Shown: piece by piece, positions 7,896 through 25,384 of the stretch
Layout: each line of letters begins with the position of its first letter
Numbering within the stretch: position 1 is the stretch's first letter
Assembly: GCA_937899415.1 (NCBI GenBank)
Contig: CALBPI010000060.1
Location: 124,001 to 188,000 of the forward strand
Source of the DNA: an uncultured Gammaproteobacteria bacterium
GTDB taxonomy: Bacteria > Pseudomonadota > Gammaproteobacteria > Steroidobacterales > Woeseiaceae
Direction: 5' to 3'
DNA: 64,000 bases
Made by a program: the position numbers and the translations under genes
Notes under the pieces: generated by a model
Told to the model about the DNA's origin: nothing
What the model saw: only the letters and a program-made list of their open reading frames with translations
Database searches by the model: none

Positions 7896-8038
7896 GCACT
7901 GTCAAGCTTTTGGACTCGGCGATTCCTCGACGCAGGGCGTCCTTTCTGGTGGTTTCGTGTGGTACCTTCGGTCGACTGGGGTTGTGTGCGAACCCCCTAA
8001 ATCGTGGGACGACATACCTGTTCAGGGGAGGGCAGGGA

Positions 8039-9538
8039 ATGGACGACGTCCAGGGGAATACGGTCTTCACCGAAGTCCGCGACAGCCGTTATTCGGGCGA
8101 TGCCACGCTCGAAGAACTGCAAATCGCTGTCGAAAACGCAATGACTGGCATTTCGTGGCTCGACACCGACGGCGTATTCCGTCAGGTGCGCGACGGCTAT
8201 GCGGCGATGCTGGGATATACGCCGGCCGAGTTGATTGGGTCTTCCTGGGCTGTGACGGTGCCGGAGAGTGATCAGCCGACGGCAGTCGAAGCCGTGCACA
8301 AGATGCTCGACGAGAGTCGTGCGACCGTTGAAACGCGCGCGATTCGTAAAGACGGCAGCATCTTTTATAAACGCCTCTTGCTCGTGAAGACCGTGGATGC
8401 GGGTGGTCGTCACAACGGGCACTACTGTTTTATGAGCGACATCAGTGCGCGGAAAGAGGCGCAGCGTCGACTCGTCGACGCGGAGCGACTCAAAACGATT
8501 GGCACGATGGCGGGCGGCATCGCGCACGACCTCAACAACCTGCTCACGCCCATCGTAGGCGGTGCGGAGCTGATTGCGGCAACCCGCTGCCAGCACGAAG
8601 CGCCCGCGCGGTCGATTCACGAGGCGGCCGCGCGCGCCCAGGAACTGATCGGCCGACTGCTCAAGTTCAGCAGCGCTGAGCGCGAGCAGAAAAAGCCTGT
8701 GAACCTGAGCAATGCGGTAAGTGTGGCGTTGCAGTTCGTGATGGGATCGTTGCCGGCCAACGTCGCGGTTGAGGCGGACTACAGCGCTGAAGCGGACACG
8801 GTGTTGGGCCTCGAGGTGTCGCTCGAGCTCATTGTCATGAACCTGGTGGCGAACGCCGGGCATGCGATGCGGGATGATGGTGGGACACTGCATGTCAGCC
8901 TGCGCAACACGAGCCCCAACGAAGTCGAACTCGTTGTGACCGATACCGGATCCGGCATCGCGGCCGAACGTATTGACCGCATTTTCGACGCCTTCTACAC
9001 CACGAAGCCGCCTGCCGAAGGTACGGGGCTTGGTTTGCTCATGGTGCGCGAGGCCGTAGAAGATATGGGGGGACGAATCAGTGTCACCTCAACCGAAGGC
9101 GAAGGTTCAGAGTTTCGCGTGGTGTTGCCTGTGAGTCAGGCATCAACAGAGTCAGATGAAAAGGACAACGCGCATGAGACGCCGAGCCTTCGCATCATGG
9201 TAATCGATGACGAGAAGCCCGTGCTCGACGTGGGCTGCGGCATGCTCGAACACCTGGGCCACCAAACCGACGGTTTTTCAGACCCGGCTGATGCGCTGGC
9301 AGCATCATCCGGCGACTACGACCTCGTCATCACGGACTACCGCATCGGCGGTGTGTCCGGTCTCGACGTGATCGAGAAGCTGGAAGGCTACTCCGGCCCG
9401 ATCATCCTGATCTCGGGCCATATCGACAGCTCGCAGACCCTGCCCGACAAGGTCACGGCCTGCCTACCCAAGCCTTTTCGTATTCTCGATCTGCAAGAGG
9501 TCATTCACAGCGTCTTGCAGCATTCGTCATCCGCGTGA
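8039..9538 (+). CDS. Soluble PAS hybrid sensor histidine kinase with receiver domain
   Basis: A 499-residue cytoplasmic hybrid kinase with no membrane segment. Order: PAS domain (about 25-140, with a PAC-like FMSDIS end), HisKA helix with the NtrB-like box GGIAHDLNNLLTP and phospho-acceptor H163, HATPase_c with the N box near 271 and TGLGL-type G box near 330, then a receiver domain (about 385-495) with D433 as phosphorylation site and S459 and K478 conserved. ATG 8039 is chosen because GGGAGGG lies just upstream; the frame is open further 5'. Its stop overlaps the GTG of tctC (GTGA), so it is cotranscribed with the first tricarboxylate transporter. No DNA-binding output domain is present; its partner is unknown. 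Confidence 0.9.
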   Translation: MDDVQGNTVFTEVRDSRYSGDATLEELQIAVENAMTGISWLDTDGVFRQVRDGYAAMLGYTPAELIGSSWAVTVPESDQPTAVEAVHKMLDESRATVETRAIRKDGSIFYKRLLLVKTVDAGGRHNGHYCFMSDISARKEAQRRLVDAERLKTIGTMAGGIAHDLNNLLTPIVGGAELIAATRCQHEAPARSIHEAAARAQELIGRLLKFSSAEREQKKPVNLSNAVSVALQFVMGSLPANVAVEADYSAEADTVLGLEVSLELIVMNLVANAGHAMRDDGGTLHVSLRNTSPNEVELVVTDTGSGIAAERIDRIFDAFYTTKPPAEGTGLGLLMVREAVEDMGGRISVTSTEGEGSEFRVVLPVSQASTESDEKDNAHETPSLRIMVIDDEKPVLDVGCGMLEHLGHQTDGFSDPADALAASSGDYDLVITDYRIGGVSGLDVIEKLEGYSGPIILISGHIDSSQTLPDKVTACLPKPFRILDLQEVIHSVLQHSSSA

Positions 9539-10530
9539 AACAGCGCGGTCTTCAGTGGACGGCTTCGCGGTTGGCGCGGTTCGCAGGAACGGTCTGTCTG
9601 CTACTGTGTCTGGCCTTCTCTGGTAGCGTTAGCGCGGCGGATCGCGTTCACTTCCTGATTCCAGGTGGGGCGGGTGGCGGCTGGGACAGCACGGCGCGGG
9701 GCGTCGGTGAGGCACTCGCGCGATCCGGCTTAGTTGAGGTTGCGTCATACGAGAATCTATCGGGCGGCGGTGGCAGTCGGGCGATGGCACACCTGATCGA
9801 AACTGCCGACCGGCAGACCAACACGCTGATGATCAGTTCGTCTCCGATCATTCTGCGTTCACTGAGAAATCTCTACCCACAGTCTTATCGTGACCTCACA
9901 CCAGTTGCCAGCGTCGTCGTCGATTACGGGGCATTCGTGGTGCGTGTGGATTCTCCCTATGAGTCCTGGCAAGACGTGATCGATGATTTTTCCGCCAACC
10001 CACGGGGCGTCAACATCGCAGGTGGGTCATCACGTGCGAGCATGGATCACATTGTCGCCGCGCTGGCCTTCCAGAAATCCGGGGTCGACGCGCGACAAAT
10101 GAAATACATCCCCTATAACGCGGGCGGGCACGCAATGGTTGGCCTGTTGTCTGGCGAGACGCAGCTCTTGTCGACGGGCCTAAGCGAAGCAATTGCACTT
10201 GCAGATCAAGGTGAAGTACGCATTTTGGCCATGACGGCGCCCGATCGTCTCGAGCGTGTGCCTGATGTGCCGACACTGGTAGAGCAGGGCGTCCCTGCGG
10301 TATTTTCGAATTGGCGGGGTTTTTTCGCGGCGCCCGGCGCTTCAGCCGCGCAAATCCAACAATTTCGGGCGACCTTATCCGCGCTCTTCGAAACCGATGC
10401 GTGGCGCACAATCCGCGAATTGCGCGGTTGGACCGACTTTCATGTGACCGGTGACGCTTTCGATACATTCCTTGATCAGCAGGAACAGGACATGGCGGTT
10501 CTACTGCGGGAGCTCGGGCTGCTCGAATAG
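9535..10530 (+). CDS. tctC: TctC/Bug-family periplasmic solute-binding protein
   Basis: A 331-residue exported binding protein of the tripartite tricarboxylate transporter (TTT) system. An N-terminal signal peptide (hydrophobic core about residues 19-34, cleavage near SVSAA) precedes the typical first strand HFLIPGGAGGGWDSTARGV; the family ligand loops follow. It would deliver a carboxylate to the TctBA permease encoded next. GTG 9535 overlaps the stop of the histidine kinase gene, which indicates translational coupling. Length matches the Bug family (about 320). The ligand (citrate, tricarballylate, another di/tricarboxylate) cannot be read from sequence. Confidence 0.92.
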   Translation: MKQRGLQWTASRLARFAGTVCLLLCLAFSGSVSAADRVHFLIPGGAGGGWDSTARGVGEALARSGLVEVASYENLSGGGGSRAMAHLIETADRQTNTLMISSSPIILRSLRNLYPQSYRDLTPVASVVVDYGAFVVRVDSPYESWQDVIDDFSANPRGVNIAGGSSRASMDHIVAALAFQKSGVDARQMKYIPYNAGGHAMVGLLSGETQLLSTGLSEAIALADQGEVRILAMTAPDRLERVPDVPTLVEQGVPAVFSNWRGFFAAPGASAAQIQQFRATLSALFETDAWRTIRELRGWTDFHVTGDAFDTFLDQQEQDMAVLLRELGLLE

Positions 10531-10545
10531 CGGGCGGCTGGCGCT

Positions 10546-10579
10546 CGAAACCGGTTTGAAAGGAAACGGCGACTAGAAT
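10546..10579 (+). promoter_or_regulatory. Putative TctD-type direct repeat and promoter before tctBA
   Basis: CGAAAC (10546-10551) and TGAAAG (10557-10562) repeat with an 11-base period, and a -10-like TAGAAT follows at 10574-10579. The layout copies the two stronger TGAAAG repeats at the tctD/TonB-receptor divergent promoters near 20.77 kb. TTGAAA at 10556 with TTATAT at 10579 is an alternative ordinary promoter reading. Confidence 0.4.
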
Positions 10580-10612
10580 TATATCTGCGGTGGTACAGGC
10601 CGCGTCGTCGTC

Positions 10613-11107
10613 ATGCGAATCCTCGATAACAAAGACCGGGTAGGGGGGCTACTCATACTGGCATTTGCCGTAGCGTACTTGCGCTACGCACTCGTATTGC
10701 CGTTGGACCCAACCGATCCCAATGCATCGTTCACCTCGCGGACTTTGCCCGTTGGGCTAGCCGTGGCGTCGATTGTGTTCGCGCTCGTGCAGCTGGCAAT
10801 GAGTTTCAGAGGGGGCTCCGGTGGCAGCATCCGCGAGGCCGTGCGCGGCTACCGGTGGCGGCCCATGCTCTTGTTGCTGGTGCTCATGCTGGGCTACTCC
10901 CTGATGTTCCAGACGCTTGGGTTTCTGGTGTCCAGCTTTACGTTCTTGCTACTCGGCTTTTTCATCATGGGCGAGCGCCGAATCATTCTCAGCGTGGTTG
11001 TGGCGGGGGGTCTCGTGACTTTGCTCTGGGCGCTTTTGACTCAGGCGTTTGGCCTGTTCCTTGATCCTGGTGATCTCATGCGTGCGATCGTGGGGTCGGC
11101 CGGGTGA
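10613..11107 (+). CDS. tctB: TctB-family small permease subunit
   Basis: A 164-residue integral membrane protein with four predicted helices, the layout of the poorly conserved small TctB subunit of TTT transporters: a helix near the N-terminus (GLLILAFAVAYL), one at about 45-65, and a pair after residue 80. Start ATG 10613. Its stop overlaps the GTG of the large permease gene by 4 bases. Assignment rests mostly on position between tctC and tctA and on the helix pattern. Confidence 0.87.
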   Translation: MRILDNKDRVGGLLILAFAVAYLRYALVLPLDPTDPNASFTSRTLPVGLAVASIVFALVQLAMSFRGGSGGSIREAVRGYRWRPMLLLLVLMLGYSLMFQTLGFLVSSFTFLLLGFFIMGERRIILSVVVAGGLVTLLWALLTQAFGLFLDPGDLMRAIVGSAG

Positions 11108-12630
11108 TCGACGGCATTCTCACGGGCCTGCAAACCGCCTTCTCCCCGATCAACCTGCTTATGGTGTTCGTCGGGTGTTTTGCGGGGACCTTTATCGGAA
11201 TGCTGCCCGGTCTCGGGCCAGTCTCCGCGATTGCGCTCATGATTCCGATCACCTACGGGCTTGACCCCGCGTCCGGCCTCATTCTTATCGCGGGCGTCTA
11301 TTACGGCGCCATTTTCGGCGGGTCGACGTCCGCCATCCTGATTAACGCGCCGGGCGTCTCGGGCGCGGTTGCGACGGCCTTTGATGGCTACCCCTTGGCG
11401 CAGCGTGGCCAGGCGGGCAAGGCCCTGGCGATTGCGGCTTACGGTTCCTTCGCCGGAGGCACGGTAGGGGCGATCCTGTTGCTGGTCTTTGTGCCATTCC
11501 TCGCCAAGGTCAGTCTGAGCTTTCAGTCTGCGGACTATTTCGCATTGATGCTTTTTGGTTGCACGGCCGTTGCCGCCTTCTCGGGCAAAGGCCAGGTGGT
11601 TAAAGCCATCCTAATGACACTGCTGGGACTGATGCTCGCAACCGTCGGTGAAGACCCGTCGGGTATTCAACGGTTCACATTCGGCAATGCAGATTTCTAC
11701 GACGGGATCAGCTTTCTGTTGCTGTCTATGGCGACGTTTGCGCTGGCCGAAGCGCTGATCGTTGTACTTCGGGGGAGCGGCGGTTCGGCAACCGCAAGCG
11801 ATCTTGAGAAAGACAAGCTAGGGTCGATGAAGTTGTCCAGTGATGAGGTTAGGGATATCGCACCTGCCGTGGGCCGCTCATCGATCTTGGGTTTCTTCGT
11901 GGGCATCCTGCCAGGCGCTGGCGCGACGATCGCATCGTTTCTCGCCTACGGCATGGAGCGCAATGCGGCGCCCGGAGATAAAAAGGAAGAATTCGGCGAC
12001 GGTAGTCACCGTGGCCTTGCGGCGCCAGAGACGGCAAACAATGCGGCTTCAACGGGCTCATTTGTGCCCTTGCTCACCCTTGGTATTCCGGGCTCGGCCA
12101 CCACGGCTGTGATGCTCGGCGCGCTGCTCTCCTACGGTGTGCAGCCGGGTCCGAGGCGCTACATCGACAGCCCCGCAGTCTTCTGGTCGGTCATTATCTC
12201 GATGTATGTGGGCAACATTATCCTGCTGGTGCTGAATCTGCCGCTGATCCCCTACATCTCAAAGCTGCTTAGCGTCCCACGTCAGCTGTTGACGCCGATC
12301 ATCCTTTTCTTCTCGCTCATGGGCGTGTATCTGGTCTCCTTCAACACGATCGATCTATCGATGATGGTCGCTATTGGTGCCATCGCTGTGGTTATCCGGA
12401 TTCTCGATTATCCGCTCGCACCCCTGTTGCTCGGCTTCATCCTGGGCGGGATGCTTGAAGACAACCTGAGAAGGGCCCTACTGATTTGGGATGGCTCGTT
12501 TGCGTTCCTTTGGCAGCGGCCGATTACGGCAACCATCATGGTCATCACGCTGCTGACCTTACTGATTCCGGTGATCGGATCGCTGCGCGATGGGCGTCGC
12601 GCACGCCATCCCGACCCGTTCATGGAGTAG
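11104..12630 (+). CDS. tctA: TctA-family large permease subunit
   Basis: A 508-residue, about 12-helix inner-membrane permease of the TTT family. Family motifs visible include GCFAGTFIGMLPGLGPVSAI near residue 30, YYGAIFGGSTSAILIN, FDGYPLAQRGQAGKALAIA, GFFVGILPGAGATIASF and LTLGIPGSATTAVMLGAL, which is the duplicated glycine/proline-rich signature. It moves carboxylates with a cation gradient using the TctC protein as receptor. GTG 11104 overlaps the tctB stop. The gene is followed 5 bases later by an unusual extra binding lipoprotein. Confidence 0.95.
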   Translation: MIDGILTGLQTAFSPINLLMVFVGCFAGTFIGMLPGLGPVSAIALMIPITYGLDPASGLILIAGVYYGAIFGGSTSAILINAPGVSGAVATAFDGYPLAQRGQAGKALAIAAYGSFAGGTVGAILLLVFVPFLAKVSLSFQSADYFALMLFGCTAVAAFSGKGQVVKAILMTLLGLMLATVGEDPSGIQRFTFGNADFYDGISFLLLSMATFALAEALIVVLRGSGGSATASDLEKDKLGSMKLSSDEVRDIAPAVGRSSILGFFVGILPGAGATIASFLAYGMERNAAPGDKKEEFGDGSHRGLAAPETANNAASTGSFVPLLTLGIPGSATTAVMLGALLSYGVQPGPRRYIDSPAVFWSVIISMYVGNIILLVLNLPLIPYISKLLSVPRQLLTPIILFFSLMGVYLVSFNTIDLSMMVAIGAIAVVIRILDYPLAPLLLGFILGGMLEDNLRRALLIWDGSFAFLWQRPITATIMVITLLTLLIPVIGSLRDGRRARHPDPFME

Positions 12631-12635
12631 ATCTG

Positions 12636-13469
12636 ATGCAACGTTGGTGGCACCGCGCAAATCGCTTGATAGTCGGCCTGGGTTTCGCACTGCTGATCGG
12701 TGCCTGTCAGGTTTCGTCTTCGCATCAAGCTGAGCGCGCTCAAGATCAGACGCGCGAGTTGCGCGTGGTCACCTCGGGCGGATTTGCGGCGGCGTACACG
12801 CTCCTCTCACCTGAGTTCGAAGCGCAGACTGGCGTTCGGCTTGTCACCGCCTACGGTTCGTCATCTGGCGGCGCGCCCGACTCCATTCCAATGCGGTTGG
12901 AGCGCAGTGAGCCCTTCGACGTCATCATTCTTTCGAAACCGTCACTCAACAATTTGACGGAGCTGGGTTACCTGCGACCCGAATCACGCCGGGATCTCGT
13001 TCGGTCCTCGATTGGTATGGCCGTTCGCGAGGGCGCTGCCGTGCCGGATATCTCGACGCCCGAGGCATTTCAAGCGGTGCTTCTTGAAGCCGCCTCCATT
13101 GGCTATTCGGCCAGCGCCAGCGGTACCTATCTGTCGACTGATTTATTCCCGCGACTTGGGATTTGGGGGGCGCTCGAGCCCAAAAGCACACGTATCCTTA
13201 GCGAGCGTGTCGCAAGCGTCGTTGCGCGTGGTGACGTAGAGATCGGCTTTCAGCAGATTAGTGAGATTCTGCCCATCGAGGGCGCGCACTATGTCGGGCC
13301 CATTCCCGCTGCGTATCAAAGGGTCACGACGTTTTCGACGGGCATCACGAAGGGGGCCAGGAATGTGAGCGATGCACAGCGACTCATCGAGTTCCTGTCG
13401 TCTATCGAGGTTGCGCCTCGCGTTGCAGAAACCGGGCTTTCTCCGGTTGTGTTGGAGCAGGGGCCATGA
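12636..13469 (+). CDS. Orphan ModA-like substrate-binding lipoprotein
   Basis: A 277-residue extracytoplasmic binding protein. Signal: MQRWWHRANRL then a hydrophobic run ending LLIGAC, a plausible lipobox with Cys25. The mature protein has the type-2 periplasmic fold seen in molybdate/sulfate-type binding proteins (RELRVVTSGGFAAAY, FDVIILSKP, then IGYSASASGTYL). There is no ABC ATPase or permease gene nearby; it sits between tctA (5 bases upstream) and a second tctC (ATGA overlap). I infer that it is an accessory receptor for a TTT transporter or a ligand sensor, a role not established for the family. Oxyanion binding is the alternative. Confidence 0.82.
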   Translation: MQRWWHRANRLIVGLGFALLIGACQVSSSHQAERAQDQTRELRVVTSGGFAAAYTLLSPEFEAQTGVRLVTAYGSSSGGAPDSIPMRLERSEPFDVIILSKPSLNNLTELGYLRPESRRDLVRSSIGMAVREGAAVPDISTPEAFQAVLLEAASIGYSASASGTYLSTDLFPRLGIWGALEPKSTRILSERVASVVARGDVEIGFQQISEILPIEGAHYVGPIPAAYQRVTTFSTGITKGARNVSDAQRLIEFLSSIEVAPRVAETGLSPVVLEQGP

Positions 13470-14446
13470 TGTGTCGACGGGTCACATGGTGCATCGTGGT
13501 CGCGCTGTGGTTGGCCTCGCCGACTGCGACCGCCGATGACTATCCGGAGCGTCCAATTACCATCGTTGTGGGCTTCGGTGTCGGAGGTAGTGCGGATCGC
13601 ATGACGCGGGCCATGTCGAGCTTCATCGGTGACGCCATTGGTCAGCCCGTTCAGGTCATCAACAAGAGAGGGGCTGGCACGCTGCTCGCGGCAAACTATG
13701 TGCTCGATCAGCCTCACGATGGCTACACCGTGTTCGCCTCCGGCTTTTCGCCCTATTTGTCGAATACCATTCTCGAAGGTAATGCGGATTACACCATCGA
13801 TGACTTCGCCTACGTCAATTTTCAGTGGTTCGACGAAGACCTGATCGCGCTGAACAAGGATTCGGAATACGAAAGCCTCGCGGACCTGCTCGACGATATT
13901 CGCGACAACCCAAAGACAGTGCGGGGTGCCGTGGTGCGTGGGTCGGGCGGGCACCTGATGGCGAAGCTGCTGCTTGAAGTCAGCGGTATTCCGCAGAAGA
14001 ACGTCAACCTCGTTGCCTACAACAGCGGTGGACTGGCGCGCGCTGCTGTCGCCGGGCACGTGGTCGACTTCATCGTAATTAGTGCGGAAGGTACCGAGAG
14101 CATTCGCGAGTACATTCGTCCGCTGGCCATTGTCAGCCGCCAGCGCAATCCAAAATGGGATGCGCCAACACTTACGGAGGTGATGTCGAAGCTGGGAATT
14201 GACGTGCCGGTGTTGCCCGGGTCGATCCGTGGCTTTGCAACGACCGCGGAATTCAAACGCCAATACCCGGCACGATTCGACAAACTCGTCGAAGCGATGC
14301 GGGTAGCCCTCGAAAACGAGGCGCTGATCACACTACTCGACCAGGCATCGATCGGCGGGCGATGGACGGGGCCCGAGGCGTCCGAAAGTACAATGAAAGA
14401 AACATTCCGTATCTTCCGGGACTATTCCTACCTGCTCAAGGAATAG
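13466..14446 (+). CDS. tctC: TctC/Bug-family periplasmic solute-binding protein (second system)
   Basis: A 326-residue exported protein: signal peptide MMCRRVTWCIVVALWLASPT with cleavage near ATADD, then the Bug-family opening YPERPITIVVGFGVGGSADRM and a conserved GYTVF region. It is the receptor of the second TTT transporter in this locus. ATG 13466 overlaps the preceding lipoprotein stop. It differs clearly from the first TctC, so the two systems probably have different substrates or affinities rather than being a recent duplication. Confidence 0.92.
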   Translation: MMCRRVTWCIVVALWLASPTATADDYPERPITIVVGFGVGGSADRMTRAMSSFIGDAIGQPVQVINKRGAGTLLAANYVLDQPHDGYTVFASGFSPYLSNTILEGNADYTIDDFAYVNFQWFDEDLIALNKDSEYESLADLLDDIRDNPKTVRGAVVRGSGGHLMAKLLLEVSGIPQKNVNLVAYNSGGLARAAVAGHVVDFIVISAEGTESIREYIRPLAIVSRQRNPKWDAPTLTEVMSKLGIDVPVLPGSIRGFATTAEFKRQYPARFDKLVEAMRVALENEALITLLDQASIGGRWTGPEASESTMKETFRIFRDYSYLLKE

Positions 14447-14453
14447 CCAGTCC

Positions 14454-14921
14454 GTGTCCGTGCCATCCGCAAGCTTCGATAGATACCGCATCGCCGACCT
14501 GTGTGTGATCGTGGTGTTGGCCGGTCTCGTGGCGTGGTATTGCATCGATGCGGTTCAGGCGTCCCGCAACATCTACAACCTGATCTTTGTGCTTCCGGTC
14601 TCGGGACTTGTACTTGTCTTGTGCACCGTTCAGTTCATCGTGGGCGCGACAAAGCTGCGCCGGCCGCAAACCGAGCAAGAGCCCATTGCCCACATCGTGC
14701 CTGTGGTCGCGCTATTTGCGGCCTACGTTTTGTCATTGCACTGGCTGGGTTTTGACGTCGGGACGTTCCTGTTTCTTTCCGTGTTCCTTTGGATTCACGG
14801 CGAGCGTCGCCTGCCCTGGCTGTTCGCCTACTCGCTCGTATTTGCGGCACTTGTGTCCTTGTTCTTCTCGAAGATGCTGCCGTACCCCATGCCCATGCTG
14901 CTGTTGCCGACAGCGTACTAG
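14454..14921 (+). CDS. tctB: TctB-family small permease subunit (second system)
   Basis: A 155-residue, four-helix membrane protein with the spacing of TctB: helices at about 12-32, 43-63, 81-101 and 115-150, the last long hydrophobic region probably being two helices. GTG 14454 lies 8 bases after tctC; the next gene begins 5 bases after its stop. Identity is supported by position in a C-B-A order and by the DVGTFLFLSVFLWIHGERR segment, which resembles the equivalent loop of the first TctB (LGFFIMGERR). Confidence 0.86.
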   Translation: MSVPSASFDRYRIADLCVIVVLAGLVAWYCIDAVQASRNIYNLIFVLPVSGLVLVLCTVQFIVGATKLRRPQTEQEPIAHIVPVVALFAAYVLSLHWLGFDVGTFLFLSVFLWIHGERRLPWLFAYSLVFAALVSLFFSKMLPYPMPMLLLPTAY

Positions 14922-16426: not shown

Positions 16427-17166
16427 TTGGGGAACTCGGATGGACGCTGTTTGCTGCAATTTCCGTGGCCGCTTTGCTAACGGGCATCTTGCACGGCGCG
16501 ACGGGTATGGCCGGTGGGATTGTCATGGCGTCGATCCTCGCGCATCTCATCGGCATCAAGGCCGCCGTGCCCGTGATGACCGTGGCGTTGATTCTGAGTC
16601 ATTTGAGCCGGGCACTCATGTACGCGCGAGATACAGACTGGGCGGTTGCCGCGCGCGTGTTGTGTTTCGGTGTGCCGACCATCATCGCGGGCGCCATCGT
16701 TTTTGGCATGATCAGCCCGGCAACGGTGGCGATTGTTTTCGCGACCTTCCTCGTCCTGTCATTCCCAATCAAGTTCTGGGCGCGAACCCACGACGTCAAG
16801 ACGGGTCCGGGATTACTCGCCGGTGCGAGTATGGTTTGGGGCATGCTTGCCGGCAACGTCATTGGGCCCGGTTTTTTTCTGGCCCCGTTTCTGCTCGGCA
16901 CGGGCATGAGCCGAATGACGTTCGTAGGAACACTCGCAGCGATCACGCTCGTCATGAACATCATCAAGTCTGGCGTTTTCCTAAGTACCAGTCTGCTGGA
17001 CACCGAGCTCGCGTTGCTTGGTGCGTGGATTGGACTCATCTCGGTGCCGGGGAACTGGATCGGGCGAACAATACTCAAGCGCATCAAGGACAGCGATCAT
17101 CGACGCGCCATCGACGTCATGACCGTTCTTATGATCATCAATTTCATCTATCTGGCAGTTAAATGA
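16423..17166 (+). CDS. TauE/SafE-family membrane permease
   Basis: A 247-residue polytopic protein, about eight hydrophobic segments in two repeats, matching the TSUP (TauE/SafE/DUF81) family of anion exporters. The repeats begin TGILHGATGMAGGIVMAS and LLAGASMVWGMLAGNVIGPG. GTG 16423 overlaps the tctA stop, and its own stop overlaps the flavoprotein ATG, so it is embedded in the carboxylate operon. TSUP proteins move sulfite, sulfoacetate, 3-sulfolactate and similar anions. Here it may export a by-product or import a related organic acid; the substrate is not visible. Confidence 0.87.
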   Translation: MIGELGWTLFAAISVAALLTGILHGATGMAGGIVMASILAHLIGIKAAVPVMTVALILSHLSRALMYARDTDWAVAARVLCFGVPTIIAGAIVFGMISPATVAIVFATFLVLSFPIKFWARTHDVKTGPGLLAGASMVWGMLAGNVIGPGFFLAPFLLGTGMSRMTFVGTLAAITLVMNIIKSGVFLSTSLLDTELALLGAWIGLISVPGNWIGRTILKRIKDSDHRRAIDVMTVLMIINFIYLAVK

Positions 17167-18647
17167 GCAATCCACACGTCATCGTCGTCGGCGGCGGTAA
17201 TGCAGCATTGTGCGCGGCCATCTCGGCACTGGAGTCAGGCGCCCGCGTGACACTCTTTGAGAAGGGCAATCCTGAGGAGGCGGGTGGTAACAGCCGCTAT
17301 ACGGCGGGCGCCATGCGATTCGCCTACGAGGACCGTGACAGCATTCTCCCGTTGCTGCGCGACCCCCACGATCCGCGCGTGCCCAAGACCGATTTCGGCG
17401 GTTACCCGAGAGAGAAATTCGAAGCGGACATGCTGCACTTCAATGCGGGTCAGCCGCTGAGTGCCTTACAACAGAAGCTCATCAACGCGAGCTACGACAC
17501 CATGGCCTGGCTCACCACTCATGACATTCGGTTTGATCCGATCTACTCGCGCCAGGCCTTCGAGAAGGACGGCAAATATGTGTTCTGGGGCGGTCTGACG
17601 CTGGAGGCCAAGGGCGAGGGCGTCGGCCTTGTCGACGCGGAGCTGGCAGCATTCGAACGGCTGGGTGGTCGCATCGAGTATGAGAGCGCGTGCGAGTCAC
17701 TGCTGATCGACTCGGGGCGCGTGACAGGTGTTGTCGTCGATACGCCGACGGGTCGGCGAGACGTACAGGGCGATGCGGTCGTGCTCGGCTGCGGCGGCTT
17801 TGAGGCCAGCAGCGAGATGCGCGCGGAAGTCATGGGGGGCAACTGGTCGCAAGCCAAGGTTCGGGGCACTCGTCACAACACGGGTGCAGGCCTCAGCATG
17901 GCGCTAGATGCTGGCGCTCACTTACACGGTCGTACCGATGGCTGTCACGCGGTCCCGATGGACCGCGACATGCCCGATTACGGGAACACGGCGCTCCCGT
18001 TTATCGAGCGCAAGCACTATCGGAAAATCTGCTACTTCCTGGGCGTGATGCTCAATGCTCACGGGCAGCGCTTCGTCGATGAGGGCGTTAACTTTCGAAA
18101 CTACACTTACGCGCAATTTGGTCGTGCCGTGCTCGAGCAGCCGGGAAATTTTGCCTGGCAGATATTCGATGCCAAGGTTGATGATCTGCTCTATGCCGAG
18201 TACCGGTTCAAGCATGCCACGTTTGTCGAGGCGGACACGCTTGAGGCGCTGGTTGAGATGCTCGACGGAGTGGACCCAAGCGCGGCCCTCGACACGCTGC
18301 GTGAATTCAATGAGGCGGTTAATGACAGCCGAGCTTTCGATCCGACAGTGCTGGACGGGCGACGCACCCATGGCCTGGCCCTCGAAAAAACGAACTGGGC
18401 CAATCGGATCGACGCGCCGCCGTATCGAGCGTATCCGGTGACTTGCGGGATCACATTTACCTATGCCGGCGTGGCGGTGGACATGAATGCGGCGGTTCTC
18501 AACGCGGATGATGCGCCCATACCGGGCCTGTTCGCCTGTGGCGAGATGATCGGCGGCATATTTGTGGATGGTTACCCGGGGGGTTCGGGCTTAACCTCTG
18601 GCGCGGTGTTTGGGCGCATTGCCGGCGCTTCCGCCGCCAACGCATAG
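17163..18647 (+). CDS. TcuA-like FAD-dependent dehydrogenase
   Basis: A 494-residue flavoprotein of the fumarate reductase/succinate dehydrogenase flavoprotein superfamily, closest by motif to FAD-dependent tricarballylate dehydrogenase (TcuA). The N-terminal Rossmann motif is VVGGGNAALCAAISALESG with FEKG at the end of strand 2; GNSRYTAGAMRF follows; the C-terminal FAD loop reads GGIFVDGYPGGSGLTSGAVFGR. No heme-binding CXXCH and no clear signal peptide, so it is cytoplasmic and needs an electron acceptor. ATG 17163 overlaps the permease stop. The 3' end overlaps the convergent tctE gene by 76 bases. In Salmonella TcuA works with an Fe-S partner TcuB, which is not found here. Confidence 0.86.
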   Translation: MSNPHVIVVGGGNAALCAAISALESGARVTLFEKGNPEEAGGNSRYTAGAMRFAYEDRDSILPLLRDPHDPRVPKTDFGGYPREKFEADMLHFNAGQPLSALQQKLINASYDTMAWLTTHDIRFDPIYSRQAFEKDGKYVFWGGLTLEAKGEGVGLVDAELAAFERLGGRIEYESACESLLIDSGRVTGVVVDTPTGRRDVQGDAVVLGCGGFEASSEMRAEVMGGNWSQAKVRGTRHNTGAGLSMALDAGAHLHGRTDGCHAVPMDRDMPDYGNTALPFIERKHYRKICYFLGVMLNAHGQRFVDEGVNFRNYTYAQFGRAVLEQPGNFAWQIFDAKVDDLLYAEYRFKHATFVEADTLEALVEMLDGVDPSAALDTLREFNEAVNDSRAFDPTVLDGRRTHGLALEKTNWANRIDAPPYRAYPVTCGITFTYAGVAVDMNAAVLNADDAPIPGLFACGEMIGGIFVDGYPGGSGLTSGAVFGRIAGASAANA

Positions 18648-20014
18648 AGCGTTTCAGCCGCGACAGGAAACAGGCAACGAACCGTGGTGCCCGTGTTGTC
18701 GGGCCCGGGCTCGAGGCTCACCGTGCCGCGATGTGCGTCGACGATTTCCTTGACAATGGCGAGCCCGAGACCGGAGCCCGCAGCGCTGGGCGTTGCGCGG
18801 TAGAAGCGCTCAAAAACCCGCTCGCGCTCGGCCTCCGAAACCCCGGGTCCGCCATCGATAATCTCCATGACGGATTGGTTGTTGCGCACAAACGTCCGAA
18901 TCGTAATTGGTGTGGCTTTGTCTGAGTACTTCGCTGCATTGTCGAGCAAATTGTCGATGACCTCGCCGAGCAATAGCTGTTTACCCATAATCGGGGCTGA
19001 TTCGAGGTCGGCAACCACTTGGAGCTCGGGATGATCTACAAGAAACGCCTCTCGGTGTTTTTCTGCGATGGCCTTGAGGTTGAACCGCGAGAGTTCCTGC
19101 TCAGAGAGCCGCATCGACTCGGCATACGTTAGGTTGAGCAGCTGGTTGGTCAGCCGAGCAATCTTTTCGGCACTACGTTTGATCTTGCTGACCGCACGAC
19201 GTTCTCGGTCGCTCTCTGCATGACGGAGCGCCAGTTCAGACTGGGGCAGCAAGGCGGAAACTGGCGTCCTGAGTTGGTGTGCGGCGTTTTCTACGAAGCG
19301 TTTGGTTACGGAGATGTTTTCCGAGAGTCGTCTGAGCAAGTCATTGAGCTCATCCACTAACCCTTCGATTTCATCAGGAAGGTTGTGCCGGCGAATGGGT
19401 GACAGATCATCCATGTCTCGGCGCTGCACAGACTCACCGAGCTGTCGCAGGGGGCGAAGCCCGAGTGAGATGCCCACCGACAGCAGTACGGTTGCGAGGA
19501 TGATGAGCAACAGGACCCGCAACAGCGCATCAATCATGATGGCCGAGACATAATCGTCTCGATCGTTGAGTGTCTGGGCGACAAACGTCGTCATCCACCC
19601 GCTGAAATCGGGACGGTCGACGAGACTGGATACGGCGATGACACGGACGGGCAAGTCGTAGTAGGTCGCGTCATAAAACTGAAGATACTGCTCGAGAACA
19701 TTGATGCCGCCGGGTGGTTCGGGAATGTCCTCGTAGCCCATGATAAAGGCGCTGTCCGGGCCGATGACTTTGTAGAAGAGGTTATCGTTCGTGGTCTCAC
19801 GAATGAGCTCGAGCAGGTCGTCTGTGAGCACATCGCCGCCGGAGGCCAGCGCGTGTTCAGAAATGCTCAACGCCAAGGTAACCAGGAGTTTGTCGAAAAT
19901 GCTCTCGGCCGTGCGCCGGGTATCGACATAGGTGCTTGCGACGTGAGCGCCCGAGAGTAACAGCAGCGGGATCACAAGCCAGGCGAGCAGGCGCCCGTGC
20001 AGTGTTCTCAGCAC
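18572..20014 (-). CDS. tctE: TctE-like membrane sensor histidine kinase
   Basis: A 480-residue inner-membrane sensor kinase. TM1 is about residues 9-28, a periplasmic sensor of roughly 130 residues follows, TM2 is about 163-186, then HAMP (LRPLRQLGESVQRRD), HisKA with H246 in NAAHQLRTPV, and HATPase_c with N box LLDNAAKYS and G boxes DGGPGVSE and GSGLGLAIV. The periplasmic part with FYKVIGPDSAFIMGYEDIP resembles the TctE sensor family that detects tricarboxylates. GTG 20014 overlaps the tctD stop. Its 3' end lies inside the convergent flavoprotein gene. The proline-rich C-terminal tail after about residue 455 is atypical and is coded mostly within that overlap. Confidence 0.93.
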   Translation of the reverse strand: MLRTLHGRLLAWLVIPLLLLSGAHVASTYVDTRRTAESIFDKLLVTLALSISEHALASGGDVLTDDLLELIRETTNDNLFYKVIGPDSAFIMGYEDIPEPPGGINVLEQYLQFYDATYYDLPVRVIAVSSLVDRPDFSGWMTTFVAQTLNDRDDYVSAIMIDALLRVLLLIILATVLLSVGISLGLRPLRQLGESVQRRDMDDLSPIRRHNLPDEIEGLVDELNDLLRRLSENISVTKRFVENAAHQLRTPVSALLPQSELALRHAESDRERRAVSKIKRSAEKIARLTNQLLNLTYAESMRLSEQELSRFNLKAIAEKHREAFLVDHPELQVVADLESAPIMGKQLLLGEVIDNLLDNAAKYSDKATPITIRTFVRNNQSVMEIIDGGPGVSEAERERVFERFYRATPSAAGSGLGLAIVKEIVDAHRGTVSLEPGPDNTGTTVRCLFPVAAETLYALAAEAPAMRPNTAPEVKPEPPG

Positions 20015-20697
20015 GACTGTGGCGCCCCGGCTGGAATGACTTCGAGCAAATAGCCGAGTCCGCGCTTCGTCACAATTCGTACATTCGTATCGACCAGATG
20101 TTTGCGCAAGCGGTGAACGTAGAGCTCGATGGATGAAATACCCGCATCGTCGTCGAACGAAAAGACATGCTGGGCGATTCGTTCTTTGCTGATGACTGCA
20201 CCATTTTGACGAATTAGCGTCTCCAGCACGGCGCGCTCGCGAGGTGCAAGCATCAACGCATCCCCGTCCAACAGAAACTCGCGTGTTGCCTGATCAAACG
20301 CGAGTGCGCCGAATCGAATAATCGGCGAGCGGGCTTCCTTGTCACGCCGTAGCAGCGCGCGAACGCGTGCTTCGAATTCGTGGAGATCAAACGGCTTGAC
20401 CAAGTAGTCGTCGGCGCCCAGGTCCAGGCCGTGGACGCGGTCCTCGATTCTGATTCGTGCCGAAACAACCAGAACAGGCGTCGGGTTACCCTGCGCGCGC
20501 ATGGTGCGAAGTAGTTCGAGCCCATCTGCATCAGGCAGGTTGAGGTCGAGGATCAGGATGTCATATTCGGTCAGGTCTAGAGCGCTGCGGAGACGAGCAC
20601 CCTCGGCAAACCAGTCCGACGCAAGCCCCATGTCGGATAGCGACTGTTGCATGCACTCGGCGATGTCGTCGGTGTCTTCGATAATCAGTGCGCGCAT
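20008..20697 (-). CDS. tctD: TctD-like OmpR-family response regulator
   Basis: A 229-residue response regulator: receiver domain with acidic pocket E7/D8, phospho-acceptor D51 (ILILDLNLPDADG) and K101 in DDYLVKPF, then an OmpR/PhoB winged helix ending VRIVTKRGLGYLLEV. ATG 20697 follows a GGGGGG ribosome site; an upstream in-frame start at 20757 would sit inside the predicted promoter. It is the cognate partner of the overlapping tctE. OmpR-family regulators bind tandem repeats with an 11-base period, and such repeats are present immediately upstream in the divergent gap. Confidence 0.93.
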   Translation of the reverse strand: MRALIIEDTDDIAECMQQSLSDMGLASDWFAEGARLRSALDLTEYDILILDLNLPDADGLELLRTMRAQGNPTPVLVVSARIRIEDRVHGLDLGADDYLVKPFDLHEFEARVRALLRRDKEARSPIIRFGALAFDQATREFLLDGDALMLAPRERAVLETLIRQNGAVISKERIAQHVFSFDDDAGISSIELYVHRLRKHLVDTNVRIVTKRGLGYLLEVIPAGAPQSC

Positions 20698-20742: not shown

Positions 20743-20774
20743 AGTATAGCCGTGCAACTTTCACTTGGCTTTCG
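20743..20774 (-). promoter_or_regulatory. Predicted tctDE promoter with 11-bp direct repeat
   Basis: Read on the minus strand, CGAAAG (20774-20769) and TGAAAG (20763-20758) repeat with an 11-base period, and a -10 box TATACT follows at 20748-20743 after 9 bases. The activator-type layout has no good -35 hexamer. Transcription would start about 40 bases before the tctD ATG, giving an autoregulated operon. Confidence 0.65.
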
Positions 20775-20781
20775 TCCCGCC

Positions 20782-20814
20782 TGAAAGCTAGTTGAAAGTA
20801 AGCGCACCTATACT
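20782..20814 (+). promoter_or_regulatory. Predicted TonB-receptor promoter with 11-bp direct repeat
   Basis: TGAAAG at 20782-20787 and again at 20793-20798 (11-base period) are followed after 10 bases by TATACT at 20809-20814. It mirrors the opposed repeat of the tctDE promoter, so the whole 20757-20799 segment is an imperfect dyad. I infer binding by TctD, with activation of the receptor gene. Confidence 0.65.
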
Positions 20815-20861: not shown

Positions 20862-23684
20862 ATGCGTAGATCCACACTCGGATTAGCCGGGCTTGCAGGG
20901 CTTGGTGTCGCAGTCGCGATGGGGGGTAGCACAGCACCAGCTGTTGCACAGGAAACTGAAAGCGTGATTGAAGAGATCACGGTGACAGGCTCCAACATTC
21001 GCCGTAAAAGAGACTTCGAGACGCCGTCTCCAATTCAGACGCTCGACAGCGAGATCATCGCAGCGTCGGGCAGTGGCCAAATGCAGGATCTGCTCAGGAT
21101 TCTGCCTGCCAACGCTGGCTCGGAGATCAACGCGGCACAAACCGACCGGCAGGGCACATCGCAGTTCAGCCTGCGCGGACTGGGTGTCGGTGGCACGCTG
21201 ACGCTCATCAACGGTCGCCGCGCGGGTCTCGCACCGGTCACCACCACACAAGGCTTCTTCTACACCGACATCAACCAGTACCCCTCGAATATGATCGAGA
21301 GTATCGAGGTACTGCTGGACGGCGCCTCGGCGACCTACGGGTCGGAAGCGGTTGGTGGTGTCGTCAATATCATTACGCGCAGAAATTTCGAGGGCCTTGA
21401 GTTCGGTCTCGAATATCGCGAAAACGACCTGAATCCAGCAGAATCAGTAAACGCCGCGTTTGGTGCGCCTCTGGATCGCGGTCATTTCACGATCTTCGCG
21501 AACTACTATCACCAGGACCGTGCACACCGTGGCGATTACGACTGGCTTGCGTCACGTGCCGATGCTTTCTCGACGGTCGCCAGCGAGAACCTGTTCGATT
21601 CATCGACGGGCGCGGGTCGATACAACGCGGCCATCGACCCGGATGGCGACGGATTTTATGATCGGATTGGCAATACCGTCGCGGATCCGAATTGCGGTCA
21701 GCCCAACCCGTTGAGCGGGATCACCAATACCTTTGTCGACGGCACGAACTGCCGATACATCTTCGTCAATCAGCGTACGCTTGTGGCCGAGCAGACACGG
21801 GTACAAGTGTTCTCGCAGTTCGATTACGACGTGTCGGACAACGTTACGGTGTTTGCAGAGGCCAGTTACTCTTCGAATGAGGTGTTGGACACCATCGGCG
21901 GCGCCGTCATGGATTTACGTTTGGATGACGACGGTCACTTCGTGCCCGGCAGTCATCCATTCAACTACTTCGTCGACAACGGTGGCACGCTGACCTGGGA
22001 CCCGGCAGCTGTCGCGGCTGACCCTTCTCTCGCGGTTGACGTCATATTCCGCGGCAGGCCGTTGACGACCTTTGACGGCGATCTGGGTGAAGACATCACG
22101 CGACAGTTTGACAACACGCGCTTGGCATTCGGGTTTGACGCGAACCTGTCGGACCGCTGGAGCCTCAACAGCTCGTTCGTATTCGCGACGTCAAACCTCA
22201 AAGACATTCAGCCGCGCAGCTACTACACGCCGGCATTCCGCGACGCCATCGCGTCGGGGGCCTGGAACCCGTTCGCGAGTGCCTGGGCGACGCCCAATGC
22301 CATTTCCGTTAAGGATGGTGTGAGTGTCGCGGGCAACACGGTCTACGGTCCCGACAGCGACTTGGCGCTGTTTTCGGTGAATCGGACGTTCGTGAAGGAG
22401 ACTACCCAGTCGGTCCTGGAAGTCATCCTGAGTGGTGATCTCTTTGAAGTGAACGGAAACCTTGTCACGGCGGCGTTTGGCGCGCAGTACCGCGATACCG
22501 AATTTTCTGATATTGCCGACAGCCTGTCGGAGTTCCAGATCGACGGCCGCACCGACCCTGTGTTCTCAATCGAAGATTCGAGCCAGGATGTCTATGCGCT
22601 TTTTGCAGAGGCCAGCGTTCCACTAACCGACGCGCTTGAGCTTCAGTTGGCGCTGCGCTACGAAGACTACGGCGACGGTGAGGGCGGGGATACGACCGAT
22701 CCGAAGCTGGGCTTCCGCTGGGCTGCAACCGACATCTTCCAGTTGCGTGGCTCGATAGGTACATCGTTCCAGGCACCCTCGATTCGCAACATCGCCGGCT
22801 CAGTCGGCAGCGGTGTGCTGCCCGACCCGATTACGGCAGCGGTATTCGCGGGCGGGCCCGGTACGGCCTGTGATTCAAACGTCACGGACTCGTTCAACTC
22901 GTCACAGATCACGACAGGCGGGGGGCTTGTGCCGCAGGACGCGACTAACTGGAATCTGGGTACGGTGTTCGACGTCGGTAACTTCACAGCGTCTATCGAC
23001 TACTGGTCGTACGAATTCACGGACCTGATTGGCCCCGGCGAAGCGTTTGGCTCGATCGTGGCCGGCGAATGCAGCAACGGTGTGTACACGCCTGACGCGC
23101 GCGTCGGTCGCAACGGTGTTGGTCAGCTCAGCGAAGTCACGACGAGCTTTGTGAACCTTGGTGGTGTCGACACGGATGGGATCGATTTCACGGGTGCTTA
23201 CACGTTTGACGAAGTGATGGGCGGTGCACTGTCGCTCAACGCTACGGCCACGGTTATCAACTCGTTCGATATCGACTTCGGCGACGGCAGCCCGACGTTC
23301 GACGGTAAAGGCAATCGCAACAGCTTCATCGATCTGTTGGGTTCGGTCCCTGACTTTCGGCTTAATGTCGGTGCAAACTGGTACAACGACAAGCAGAATG
23401 CGTCGGTATTTGTGCGCCACATCGGCGGCTATGACGATCGCGAACCCGATAGTGCCAACGATTCAATTGACTCGTTCACGGTTGTTGACCTTCAGTATGG
23501 TTACACCTTTGACGGGCTTATCGGTTCAGGCAGCACCAACATCGTTGTTGGGATGAACAACGTTGCTGACGAAGATCCGCCCGCAATCGATCGCGGCTCG
23601 GTCAACGGTCGCATCGGGTTTGACGGTCAGGTTCATGATCCGCGTGGTCGGATCACCTACGTGAGGTTCACGCAGAGCTTCTGA
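20862..23684 (+). CDS. TonB-dependent outer-membrane receptor
   Basis: A 940-residue outer-membrane receptor. A signal peptide (MRRSTLGLAGLAGLGVAVAM, cleavage near VAQET) is followed by a TonB-box-like segment EEITVTGSNIRRK, a plug domain with SLRGLGVGGTLTLINGRR and the conserved IESIEVLLDGASATYGSEAVGGVVNI, then a 22-strand barrel ending YVRFTQSF with terminal Phe. ATG 20862 is chosen over the adjoining TTG. The divergent gap holds direct repeats attributed to TctD, and a TctC-like binding protein is encoded two genes on, which suggests that the receptor brings a polycarboxylate or its metal complex across the outer membrane. The barrel type is also common for oligosaccharide or siderophore uptake. 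Confidence 0.95.
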   Translation: MRRSTLGLAGLAGLGVAVAMGGSTAPAVAQETESVIEEITVTGSNIRRKRDFETPSPIQTLDSEIIAASGSGQMQDLLRILPANAGSEINAAQTDRQGTSQFSLRGLGVGGTLTLINGRRAGLAPVTTTQGFFYTDINQYPSNMIESIEVLLDGASATYGSEAVGGVVNIITRRNFEGLEFGLEYRENDLNPAESVNAAFGAPLDRGHFTIFANYYHQDRAHRGDYDWLASRADAFSTVASENLFDSSTGAGRYNAAIDPDGDGFYDRIGNTVADPNCGQPNPLSGITNTFVDGTNCRYIFVNQRTLVAEQTRVQVFSQFDYDVSDNVTVFAEASYSSNEVLDTIGGAVMDLRLDDDGHFVPGSHPFNYFVDNGGTLTWDPAAVAADPSLAVDVIFRGRPLTTFDGDLGEDITRQFDNTRLAFGFDANLSDRWSLNSSFVFATSNLKDIQPRSYYTPAFRDAIASGAWNPFASAWATPNAISVKDGVSVAGNTVYGPDSDLALFSVNRTFVKETTQSVLEVILSGDLFEVNGNLVTAAFGAQYRDTEFSDIADSLSEFQIDGRTDPVFSIEDSSQDVYALFAEASVPLTDALELQLALRYEDYGDGEGGDTTDPKLGFRWAATDIFQLRGSIGTSFQAPSIRNIAGSVGSGVLPDPITAAVFAGGPGTACDSNVTDSFNSSQITTGGGLVPQDATNWNLGTVFDVGNFTASIDYWSYEFTDLIGPGEAFGSIVAGECSNGVYTPDARVGRNGVGQLSEVTTSFVNLGGVDTDGIDFTGAYTFDEVMGGALSLNATATVINSFDIDFGDGSPTFDGKGNRNSFIDLLGSVPDFRLNVGANWYNDKQNASVFVRHIGGYDDREPDSANDSIDSFTVVDLQYGYTFDGLIGSGSTNIVVGMNNVADEDPPAIDRGSVNGRIGFDGQVHDPRGRITYVRFTQSF

Positions 23685-23696
23685 CCGGGGTTACGG

Positions 23697-24278
23697 ATGC
23701 AACGGAACGCATCGATGACAGGAATAAAGACGGCCGCTGTGCGATGCATGGCGGCCGTTCTTGCGTGTGTACCTTCCGTCGCCGATGCGAATGATCAGGC
23801 GTTGGGCCGTGCCTTGCTTGTGTGCGCGGAGGACGCAGATGATGCGTTGCGTCTTCGTTGCGTGGATAGGCTCATCGCGTCGTTGCGAGTCGAGTTCGCA
23901 CCGAATGTGAACTTGAGCCCGCCCGCCGAGCGCCCGGCGATGGCCATTGCGGTTGAGGCGCCCGTGGCCGAGGCTGCAATCGAGGTGCCGAATACGCAAG
24001 AGGTTGAACCAGCATCGACCGCGACCGCAAAGCCCCAACCGGCCGACCCACCGGTGCGTGTGGCTGAAACCCAGCTTGTAAGCGCCTACCAGGACCGAAA
24101 GAAACGCTGGTACTTCGAGTTGGACAACGGCGAGGTCTGGCGCCAGACAGAGGCACGAACCTTGCCCGGCATCAGTGATCTACCCGTGGTGGTTACCGTA
24201 TCGCGTGGCGTGTTTGGTAGCCATAATCTACGTAGCGACGCGTTTTCCGGGTCGATCAAGGTCAAACGCTTCAAATGA
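23697..24278 (+). CDS. Exported protein of unknown function, 193 aa
   Basis: I do not recognise a named family. The N-terminus looks like a signal peptide (VRCMAAVLACVPSVADA). The mature N-terminal part carries ALLVCAEDADDALRLRCVDRLIASL, similar in style to short proteobacterial exported proteins that begin with a Cys-x-n-LRCYDRLA element; the two Cys could form a disulfide. A low-complexity Ala/Pro/Glu linker (about 75-120) leads to a C-terminal beta module with KKRWYFELDNGEVWRQTEA and a basic end KVKRFK. ATG 23715 is an alternative start. It lies 12 bases after the receptor gene and overlaps the next gene (ATGA), so it is part of the same operon and probably periplasmic. Confidence 0.8.
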   Translation: MQRNASMTGIKTAAVRCMAAVLACVPSVADANDQALGRALLVCAEDADDALRLRCVDRLIASLRVEFAPNVNLSPPAERPAMAIAVEAPVAEAAIEVPNTQEVEPASTATAKPQPADPPVRVAETQLVSAYQDRKKRWYFELDNGEVWRQTEARTLPGISDLPVVVTVSRGVFGSHNLRSDAFSGSIKVKRFK

Positions 24279-25384
24279 TCAGAAGAGAACGTTGTCGATG
24301 GCGGCCGCCGTTCTGTGCCTGTGCGGTCATGATGCTAATGGTCAGTGTGGGTGCGTTGGTGACGCCCGCATCGGCCGACGTTGATTTTTCCGGCCAGACC
24401 ATCGAGTGGATCATCCCGTTCCGTGAGGGCGGCGGTTCTGATACCTGGGCACGTTTTAATGCGCCCTTCCTTGCGCGGCATTTGCCGGGCAACCCTGAGA
24501 TCGTCATTCGCAACGTGCCCGGGGGCAGTTCGACCAAAGGCGTCAATCGGTATGCGCAAGGCGCGCCAGCCAATGGCTTGTCGTTGCTCGGAACCTCGGC
24601 ATCGACGCAGTTCCCGTTCTTGCTCGGTGACTCGCGCGTGCGCTACGACTATGCGCAGTGGCGCGTCTTGATGGTGTACCCAACGGGTGGCATCGTTTAT
24701 GTGCGGCCTGAGCTTGGGGTTTCACGCCCCGAGGAACTGGCGCAGCTTCGTGGCAAGCGACTGGTCTACGGGAGTCAAGGCGCGACATCGCTGGACCTTG
24801 TGCCTTTGCTCGGTTTTGAGTTGCTTGGGCTTGATGTGCGGCCCATATTCGGCATTCGTGGCCGCAGCGCCGCGCAACTGGCCTTTCAGCGCGGCGATGC
24901 GACTATTGATTTTCAGACTTCGGCGGCTTACTTCCGTAATGTTGAGCCACTGGTTGCAGCGGGCGAAGCGATTCCTCTTTTCACGCTGGGTGCGCTGAAT
25001 TCCGCCGGCGAACTGGTGCGCGATCCACAGTTTCCCGATCTTCCGCATTTGGGTGAGGTCTACGCGACGATTCACGGCAAGCCACCGAGCGGGCTCGACT
25101 GGGACAGCTGGTTTGCCTTTTTCAGTGCCGGGTTTGGTGCGCAGAAACTTCTTGTCGTGCCGCGAACAACTCCGGACGATGTGATTGCGGCCTACGAAGC
25201 AGCGTTTGAGCGTATGCAGCGGGATCCCGAGTACTTAGCACGACGTACTGACGCACTGGGCGCCTATGAACAGGTCACGGGCGACGCGGCTGAGCGGCTC
25301 TATCGGCTCGCCAGCGATGTGCCGGACCGGCCGCGGCAGTGGATCAAAGCCTGGTTGCGCCGCACATATAACCTCAATATCTGA
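24275..25384 (+). CDS. Orphan TctC-like periplasmic binding protein
   Basis: A 369-residue exported binding protein, longer than typical Bug proteins (about 320). A twin-basic N-terminus and hydrophobic core end near TPASADV. The mature start IEWIIPFREGGGSDTWARF and IVIRNVPGGSSTKGVNRY correspond to the family opening IxxIVPFxxGGGxD and VxNxPGG. There are no tctA/tctB genes in this operon, so it must borrow a permease, perhaps one of the two encoded at 10.6-16.4 kb, or act as a periplasmic sensor or carrier. ATG 24275 overlaps the preceding stop; its last 11 bases overlap a convergent gene. Confidence 0.88.
   Translation: MIRRERCRWRPPFCACAVMMLMVSVGALVTPASADVDFSGQTIEWIIPFREGGGSDTWARFNAPFLARHLPGNPEIVIRNVPGGSSTKGVNRYAQGAPANGLSLLGTSASTQFPFLLGDSRVRYDYAQWRVLMVYPTGGIVYVRPELGVSRPEELAQLRGKRLVYGSQGATSLDLVPLLGFELLGLDVRPIFGIRGRSAAQLAFQRGDATIDFQTSAAYFRNVEPLVAAGEAIPLFTLGALNSAGELVRDPQFPDLPHLGEVYATIHGKPPSGLDWDSWFAFFSAGFGAQKLLVVPRTTPDDVIAAYEAAFERMQRDPEYLARRTDALGAYEQVTGDAAERLYRLASDVPDRPRQWIKAWLRRTYNLNI

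Follow-up and report, generated by a model that had tools for sequence, protein, structure and literature searches.

Genes at the tctDE locus

We analysed a window of 64,000 nucleotides (the whole stretch of DNA under study), in which a two-component system of the TctD/TctE type is transcribed away from the gene of a TonB-dependent receptor. The genes around the gap between the two transcription units are as follows:

17163–18647, plus strand: tcuA, FAD-dependent tricarballylate dehydrogenase (562 bits against a cut-off of 369)
18572–20014, minus strand: tctE, sensor histidine kinase with a 2CSK_N sensor domain (domain search)
20008–20697, minus strand: tctD, OmpR/PhoB-family response regulator; ATG at 20697 as most likely start; D51, K101 and H195 of the recognition helix present
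20862–23684, plus strand: TonB-dependent receptor, predicted TctD target; ATG at 20862 as most likely start
23697–24278, plus strand: secreted-looking protein of 193 amino acids, no family found; probably in the receptor operon
24275–25384, plus strand: protein of 369 amino acids, by eye similar to TctC/Bug binding proteins but unmatched in Pfam and NCBIfam; probable member of the receptor operon

The tctD product combines the Pfam domains Response_reg and Trans_reg_C, i.e. a receiver and a winged helix. Among the NCBIfam models, TctD fits it best (226.6 bits; PmrA 189.4, QseB 184.5), at a score below the TctD equivalog cut-off of 337 bits; we thus call the protein TctD-like on the grounds of its neighbourhood, kinship and operator, and not as an equivalog of the Salmonella protein. 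It is paired with a 2CSK_N (TctE-type) kinase and with tricarboxylate transport genes. Since the cluster holds two tctC-tctB-tctA sets, a TauE-like permease and a TcuA-type FAD protein, tricarboxylates are the likely substrate class. Positions 7910–14921 carry the gene of a PAS-domain hybrid histidine kinase followed by the two tctC-tctB-tctA sets, which are separated by the gene of an additional solute-binding protein. The reading frames of tctE and tcuA overlap tail to tail by 76 bp (18572–18647).

The gap between tctD and the receptor gene contains two predicted promoters, each with its own tandem repeat:

20748–20743, minus strand: -10 element TATACT of the tctDE promoter, 9 bp past the mirror box (spacer ttgcacggc)
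20758–20774, minus strand: mirror TctD box facing tctD, CGAAAG-ccaag-TGAAAG (plus-strand letters CTTTCACTTGGCTTTCG); 24.2 bits including the -10
20782–20798, plus strand: receptor-facing TctD box TGAAAG-ctagt-TGAAAG (TGAAAGCTAGTTGAAAG on the plus strand); 31.3 bits including the -10, from a model not trained on the window
20809–20814, plus strand: -10 element TATACT of the receptor promoter, 10 bp past the box (spacer taagcgcacc)

The original prediction of facing repeats with identical TATACT boxes at 20743–20814 is borne out at these positions, apart from the outer half-site on the tctD strand, which reads CGAAAG instead of TGAAAG. Direct reading of the gap places the inner half-sites of the two boxes 7 bp apart. 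A -35 hexamer is absent from the receptor promoter at 17 bp spacing, where the sequence is AGCTAG, and the box stands in its place. This is how class II promoters that depend on an activator are built: as in other promoters of OmpR/PhoB-type regulators, a tandem repeat replaces the -35 beside a sigma-70 -10.

Half-sites of five to six bases are frequent once mismatches are allowed, and the 31 occurrences in the window at up to two mismatches are what chance predicts. The exact arrangement is a different matter. When the gap was Markov-shuffled, 0.16% of the copies contained a mirrored 5-mer pair with a period of 11. Of the 369 genomes of the class that were searched, the window's own has the exact facing pair and the 368 others lack it. 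The 3.94-Mb genome has five copies of CTTTC-N6-CTTTC, of which two lie in the tctD/receptor gap and one 6.4 kb away in the same gene cluster. That the repeats are a mere chance pattern has a negligible probability in our view, and is refuted by the conservation, with fixed orientation and -10 spacing, described below.

A conserved predicted operator upstream of tctD-like genes

TctD relatives were gathered from plasmids and from 397 genomes of the phylum, giving 91 non-redundant tctD-like genes whose upstream DNA we compared. Of the 91 loci, 39 contain an exact 6-mer direct repeat at a lag of 11, compared with 6.2 ± 2.2 in shuffles (z = 15), and none of the other lags from 7 to 25 was enriched upstream of these genes. 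Repeats that were not conserved beside conserved promoters would have refuted the original prediction; the survey shows the repeats to be conserved. Besides the window, 34 of 90 loci carry CT[T/G]TC-N6-CT[T/G]TC within 400 bp upstream of tctD. Its orientation is uniform (34/34), with CTTTC on the tctD coding strand and TGAAAG/TGACAG reading towards the divergent target. On the target side, a -10 element follows 10 bp past the box; of the 34 loci, 28 have its T, 26 its A and 21 its final T. The half-site columns were preselected by the search pattern, the -10 columns were not. No -10 signal was detected on the tctD side of the box in these 34 loci. The receptor-facing site of the window has the same sense and the same -10 distance of 10 bp, and the shared orientation and spacing make it a conserved predicted TctD operator.

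Outside TctD loci the box is rare: it was found in none of 27 loci of same-family paralogues and in 2 of 80 control loci from other phyla. These two box-like sites (L098, L099) read CTTTCAGCTATCTTTC and lie upstream of a Selenomonas response regulator. A contig scan with TctD picked up chiefly distant regulators, above all those of Selenomonas, on the strength of chance peptide matches, and served as a control only. In a weight matrix built from the 34 other loci, the two best sites of the window are those at 20782 (plus strand, 31.3 bits) and 20774 (minus strand, 24.2 bits), compared with a maximum of 19.8 bits in about 1.07 Mb of control loci. The regulator and the kind of promoter named beforehand thus agree with both the ranking and the conservation. 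The genome encodes 27 proteins matching TctD at E ≤ 0.001, and the half-site and period of the boxes resemble those of PhoB and PmrA, so that another OmpR/PhoB-family regulator, such as a PmrA/QseB- or PhoB-like paralogue, might use them. We regard this as very unlikely, as the boxes are tied to TctD loci across the phylum, are missing from the 27 paralogue loci, and rank first in the window under a model of TctD loci.

In a tree of the regulators, the boxes track the TctD clade, with CTTTC in the window's part and CTGTC mostly elsewhere; the window's box and its TctD both belong to the CTTTC clade. The strict box is absent from 56 of the 91 loci, some of which have other repeats, e.g. CGGAC-N6-CGGAC. 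One clade of TctD-like regulators (L131, L154, L155, L158) has CGGACAAATAxCGGACA upstream, again with an 11-bp period, which likely reflects a different half-site specificity. Repeats of TTAAG/TTTAA with a period of 11, resembling PmrA/QseB sites, occur beside TctD-like regulators of a separate branch (L182, L210). In three loci (L138, L145, L148), CTTTC half-sites are repeated three times in 11-bp steps upstream of tctD, before genes of OpdH-type porins, which suggests binding of more than one dimer.

Position 195 of the regulator offers a lead on specificity. In PmrA, residue 195 of the recognition helix contacts bases (PMC3973317; positions equated by matching numbering). TctD proteins with CTTTC boxes have His at this position in 20 of 25 cases, those with CTGTC boxes in 0 of 8 (Fisher p = 9e-5), and a sister pair differs in the same manner (L036: His195 with TGAAAG; L037: Ser195 with TGACAG). 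Judged from these alignments, residue 195 may contribute to the choice of box; alternatively, the link may reflect shared ancestry, since many other columns correlate with box type more strongly.

Comparison with known systems

For Pseudomonas aeruginosa, a TctD motif was reported in 2015 along with TctD control of both tctD and opdH-tctCBA (Bielecki et al. 2015, PMC4513871). This type of site was therefore already known, though not to the author of the original prediction, who was aware of no published TctD site of this kind. The P. aeruginosa locus shares with the window TctD itself, a divergent gene for outer-membrane uptake, activation in the case of opdH, and a motif in both promoters (by description, not by letters). 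It differs in that the window's target is a TonB receptor and that each of the window's promoters has its own mirror-image box.

In Salmonella, tctDE is divergent from the transporter genes tctCBA, and many of the surveyed loci have this divergent layout of regulator and transporter. In the window, by contrast, tctDE is divergent from the TonB receptor gene, and tctBA and tcuA lie downstream of tctE in convergent orientation.

Comparison with the pho box of Escherichia coli phoA qualifies the view that these are OmpR/PhoB-type tandem repeats beside a -10. Period and place agree: tandem half-sites with an 11-bp period replace the -35 about 10–11 bp before the -10, and the CTGTC variant of the TctD box even has identical letters. 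The sense does not, as the PhoB sequence CTGTCATAAAGTTGTCAC (CTGTCA) reads towards the -10, whereas the TctD box reads TGACAG/TGAAAG in that direction. Having this reversed orientation, the window's boxes are not pho boxes with CTGTCA half-sites towards the -10. BasR/PmrA is among the closest solved relatives of the window's TctD by sequence, and the PmrA box CTTAAT-N5-CCTAAG (PMC3973317) likewise consists of two 6-bp half-sites 5 bp apart that are bound head to tail. Its letters are different, however; the window's half-sites are TGAAAG and not CTTAA, and the helix residues 193, 196 and 199 are Y, R and K in the window's TctD compared with H, N and E in PmrA.

Proposed activation from two mirrored boxes

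We propose that TctD activates the back-to-back promoters of tctDE and the receptor operon through the two boxes in the manner of a class II activator, a reading to which we assign a probability of roughly 0.78. A TctD dimer would bind head to tail to both half-sites of a box (TGAAAG-N5-TGAAAG, with a period of 11 bp) at about -39 to -23, in place of the missing -35, and would recruit sigma-70 polymerase to the TATACT 9–10 bp further on. TctE would sense a tricarboxylate, e.g. citrate or tricarballylate, and phosphorylate TctD, so that the receptor operon and tctDE would be switched on together, yielding positive feedback and an outer-membrane uptake route. The survey shows the boxes, their conservation, their fixed orientation and -10 spacing, and their confinement to TctD loci and related transport genes; we infer binding by the window's own TctD, activation over repression, phosphorylation, the ligand and the cargo of the receptor.

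But does TctD activate or repress at this locus? In P. aeruginosa, opdH depends on TctD both for expression and for citrate induction (PMC4513871, PMC10865840), and TctD lowers PhoB-driven promoters in which a TctD box adjoins a PhoB box (PMC4513871), so that binding alone does not fix the sign of regulation. The boxes of the window overlap the -35 region and might block polymerase there, with tctDE being autorepressed and the receptor released when TctD changes its state; control of opdH has indeed been described as derepression (PMC6403454). We consider such repression improbable. The missing -35 of the receptor promoter is expected if the promoter depends on an activator, the conserved distance between box and target-side -10 would be needless for simple blocking, and opdH expression falls in tctD mutants. 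By analogy with opdH, we thus favour activation of the receptor and, through the mirror box, of tctDE.

The second half of this proposal, that TctD acts on its own operon, is the less widely mirrored in nature: none of the other 34 site-bearing tctD loci has a second box facing tctD, and self-activation therefore rests on the geometry of the site. That geometry is the same as on the receptor side. Moreover, the 397 genomes yielded one further mirror pair, at about 1500–1570 of locus L231 in the gap between genes of a CitMHS citrate transporter and an AEC-family transporter; on each side the box is followed after 10 bp by a -10 element (TAGAAT and TATCAT). Its occurrence in another genome makes self-activation through a mirror box credible, and mirror pairs have thus been found twice; in both cases the flanking genes are divergent and take part in, or are linked to, carboxylate transport. 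Alternatively, the receptor-facing box alone activates, and the mirror box is autoregulatory or cooperative, or the two promoters compete, their -35 regions being about 15 bp apart. The solitary target-facing box in all 34 other loci fits this alternative, as does the 7-bp distance between the inner half-sites, at which two polymerases would be crowded. Against it, the mirror box is followed after 9 bp by a TATACT of its own, and both sides of the L231 pair have a -10 at 10 bp; we hold this alternative to be unlikely, if less so than repression. Activation from both boxes hence remains the reading we prefer.

Two further candidate sites lie among the transport genes of the window:

14383–14415, plus strand: candidate third TctD promoter CGAAAG-tacaa-TGAAAG-N10-TATCTT, within the 3'-terminal part of the second tctC and 38 bp ahead of tctB2; 15.3 bits
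10546–10579, plus strand: weaker candidate CGAAAC-cggtt-TGAAAG-N11-TAGAAT in the tctC1-tctB1 gap; 13.9 bits, within the range of chance

Genome-wide, the full pattern (N10, up to two mismatches) has two matches, the receptor site and 14383–14415. Going by this pattern, the latter is probably a third TctD promoter that would drive tctB2A2-tauE-tcuA, and TctD would probably turn on these genes together with the receptor operon and tctDE. The weaker candidate occupies a position parallel to it in the first set.

TonB receptors as predicted TctD targets

The targets of such boxes across the survey are tctC, the OpdH porin, TonB receptors and CitMHS. At a Pseudomonas-like locus with the box, the divergent gene encodes the cis-aconitate porin OpdH (E = 4e-164). 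In two relatives of the window's organism, TctD-type boxes lie directly upstream of a TonB receptor gene: TGAAAG-gctgg-TGAAAG-N10-TAGCCT in L036 (5246–5278, plus strand; 33.2 bits) and TGACAG-gctgg-TGACAG-N10-TAAGGT in L037 (6429–6397, minus strand; 28.8 bits), both scored with the matrix used for the window. These receptor-side sites were outside the training set of the matrix, which included the tctC-side box of L036. The exact whole-promoter pattern has four matches in 107 genomes of the family, namely the window, L036, L037 and G004. The G004 match falls within the coding sequence of an mscS-like gene and was set aside as a chance hit. Two genomes of the family have tctDE divergent from tctCBA, with tctA followed by a gene for a TonB receptor. 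With orientation and -10 spacing conserved and independent boxes before TonB receptors in two relatives, the receptor promoter is strongly supported as a predicted TctD target, as originally proposed. A literature search on TctD and TonB receptors retrieved nothing relevant.

The receptors of L036 and L037 share 80% identity but hardly any kinship with that of the window, so that TctD control of TonB receptors seems to be of multiple origin. We tentatively suggest, at somewhat less than even odds, that in this lineage TonB receptors have replaced OpdH-type porins as the TctD-controlled outer-membrane gate for tricarboxylates, that they were recruited at least twice (once in the window and once in the two relatives), and that the operator of the window was duplicated in mirror image so that regulator and gate rise together.

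New in this work are the mirror duplication of the operator, TonB receptors as its predicted targets, an explicit promoter rule with a sense reversed relative to PhoB, and the probable third site at 14383–14415. The rule, a TGAAAG/TGACAG-N5 repeat followed by N10 and TAnnnT, is defined at the level of letters and predicts TctD targets from sequence alone. The window offers a naturally occurring mirror pair of these operators serving two promoters. The finding also links TonB-dependent receptors with the sensing of tricarboxylates; citrate-like acids would then be taken up by an energised route and not through a porin.
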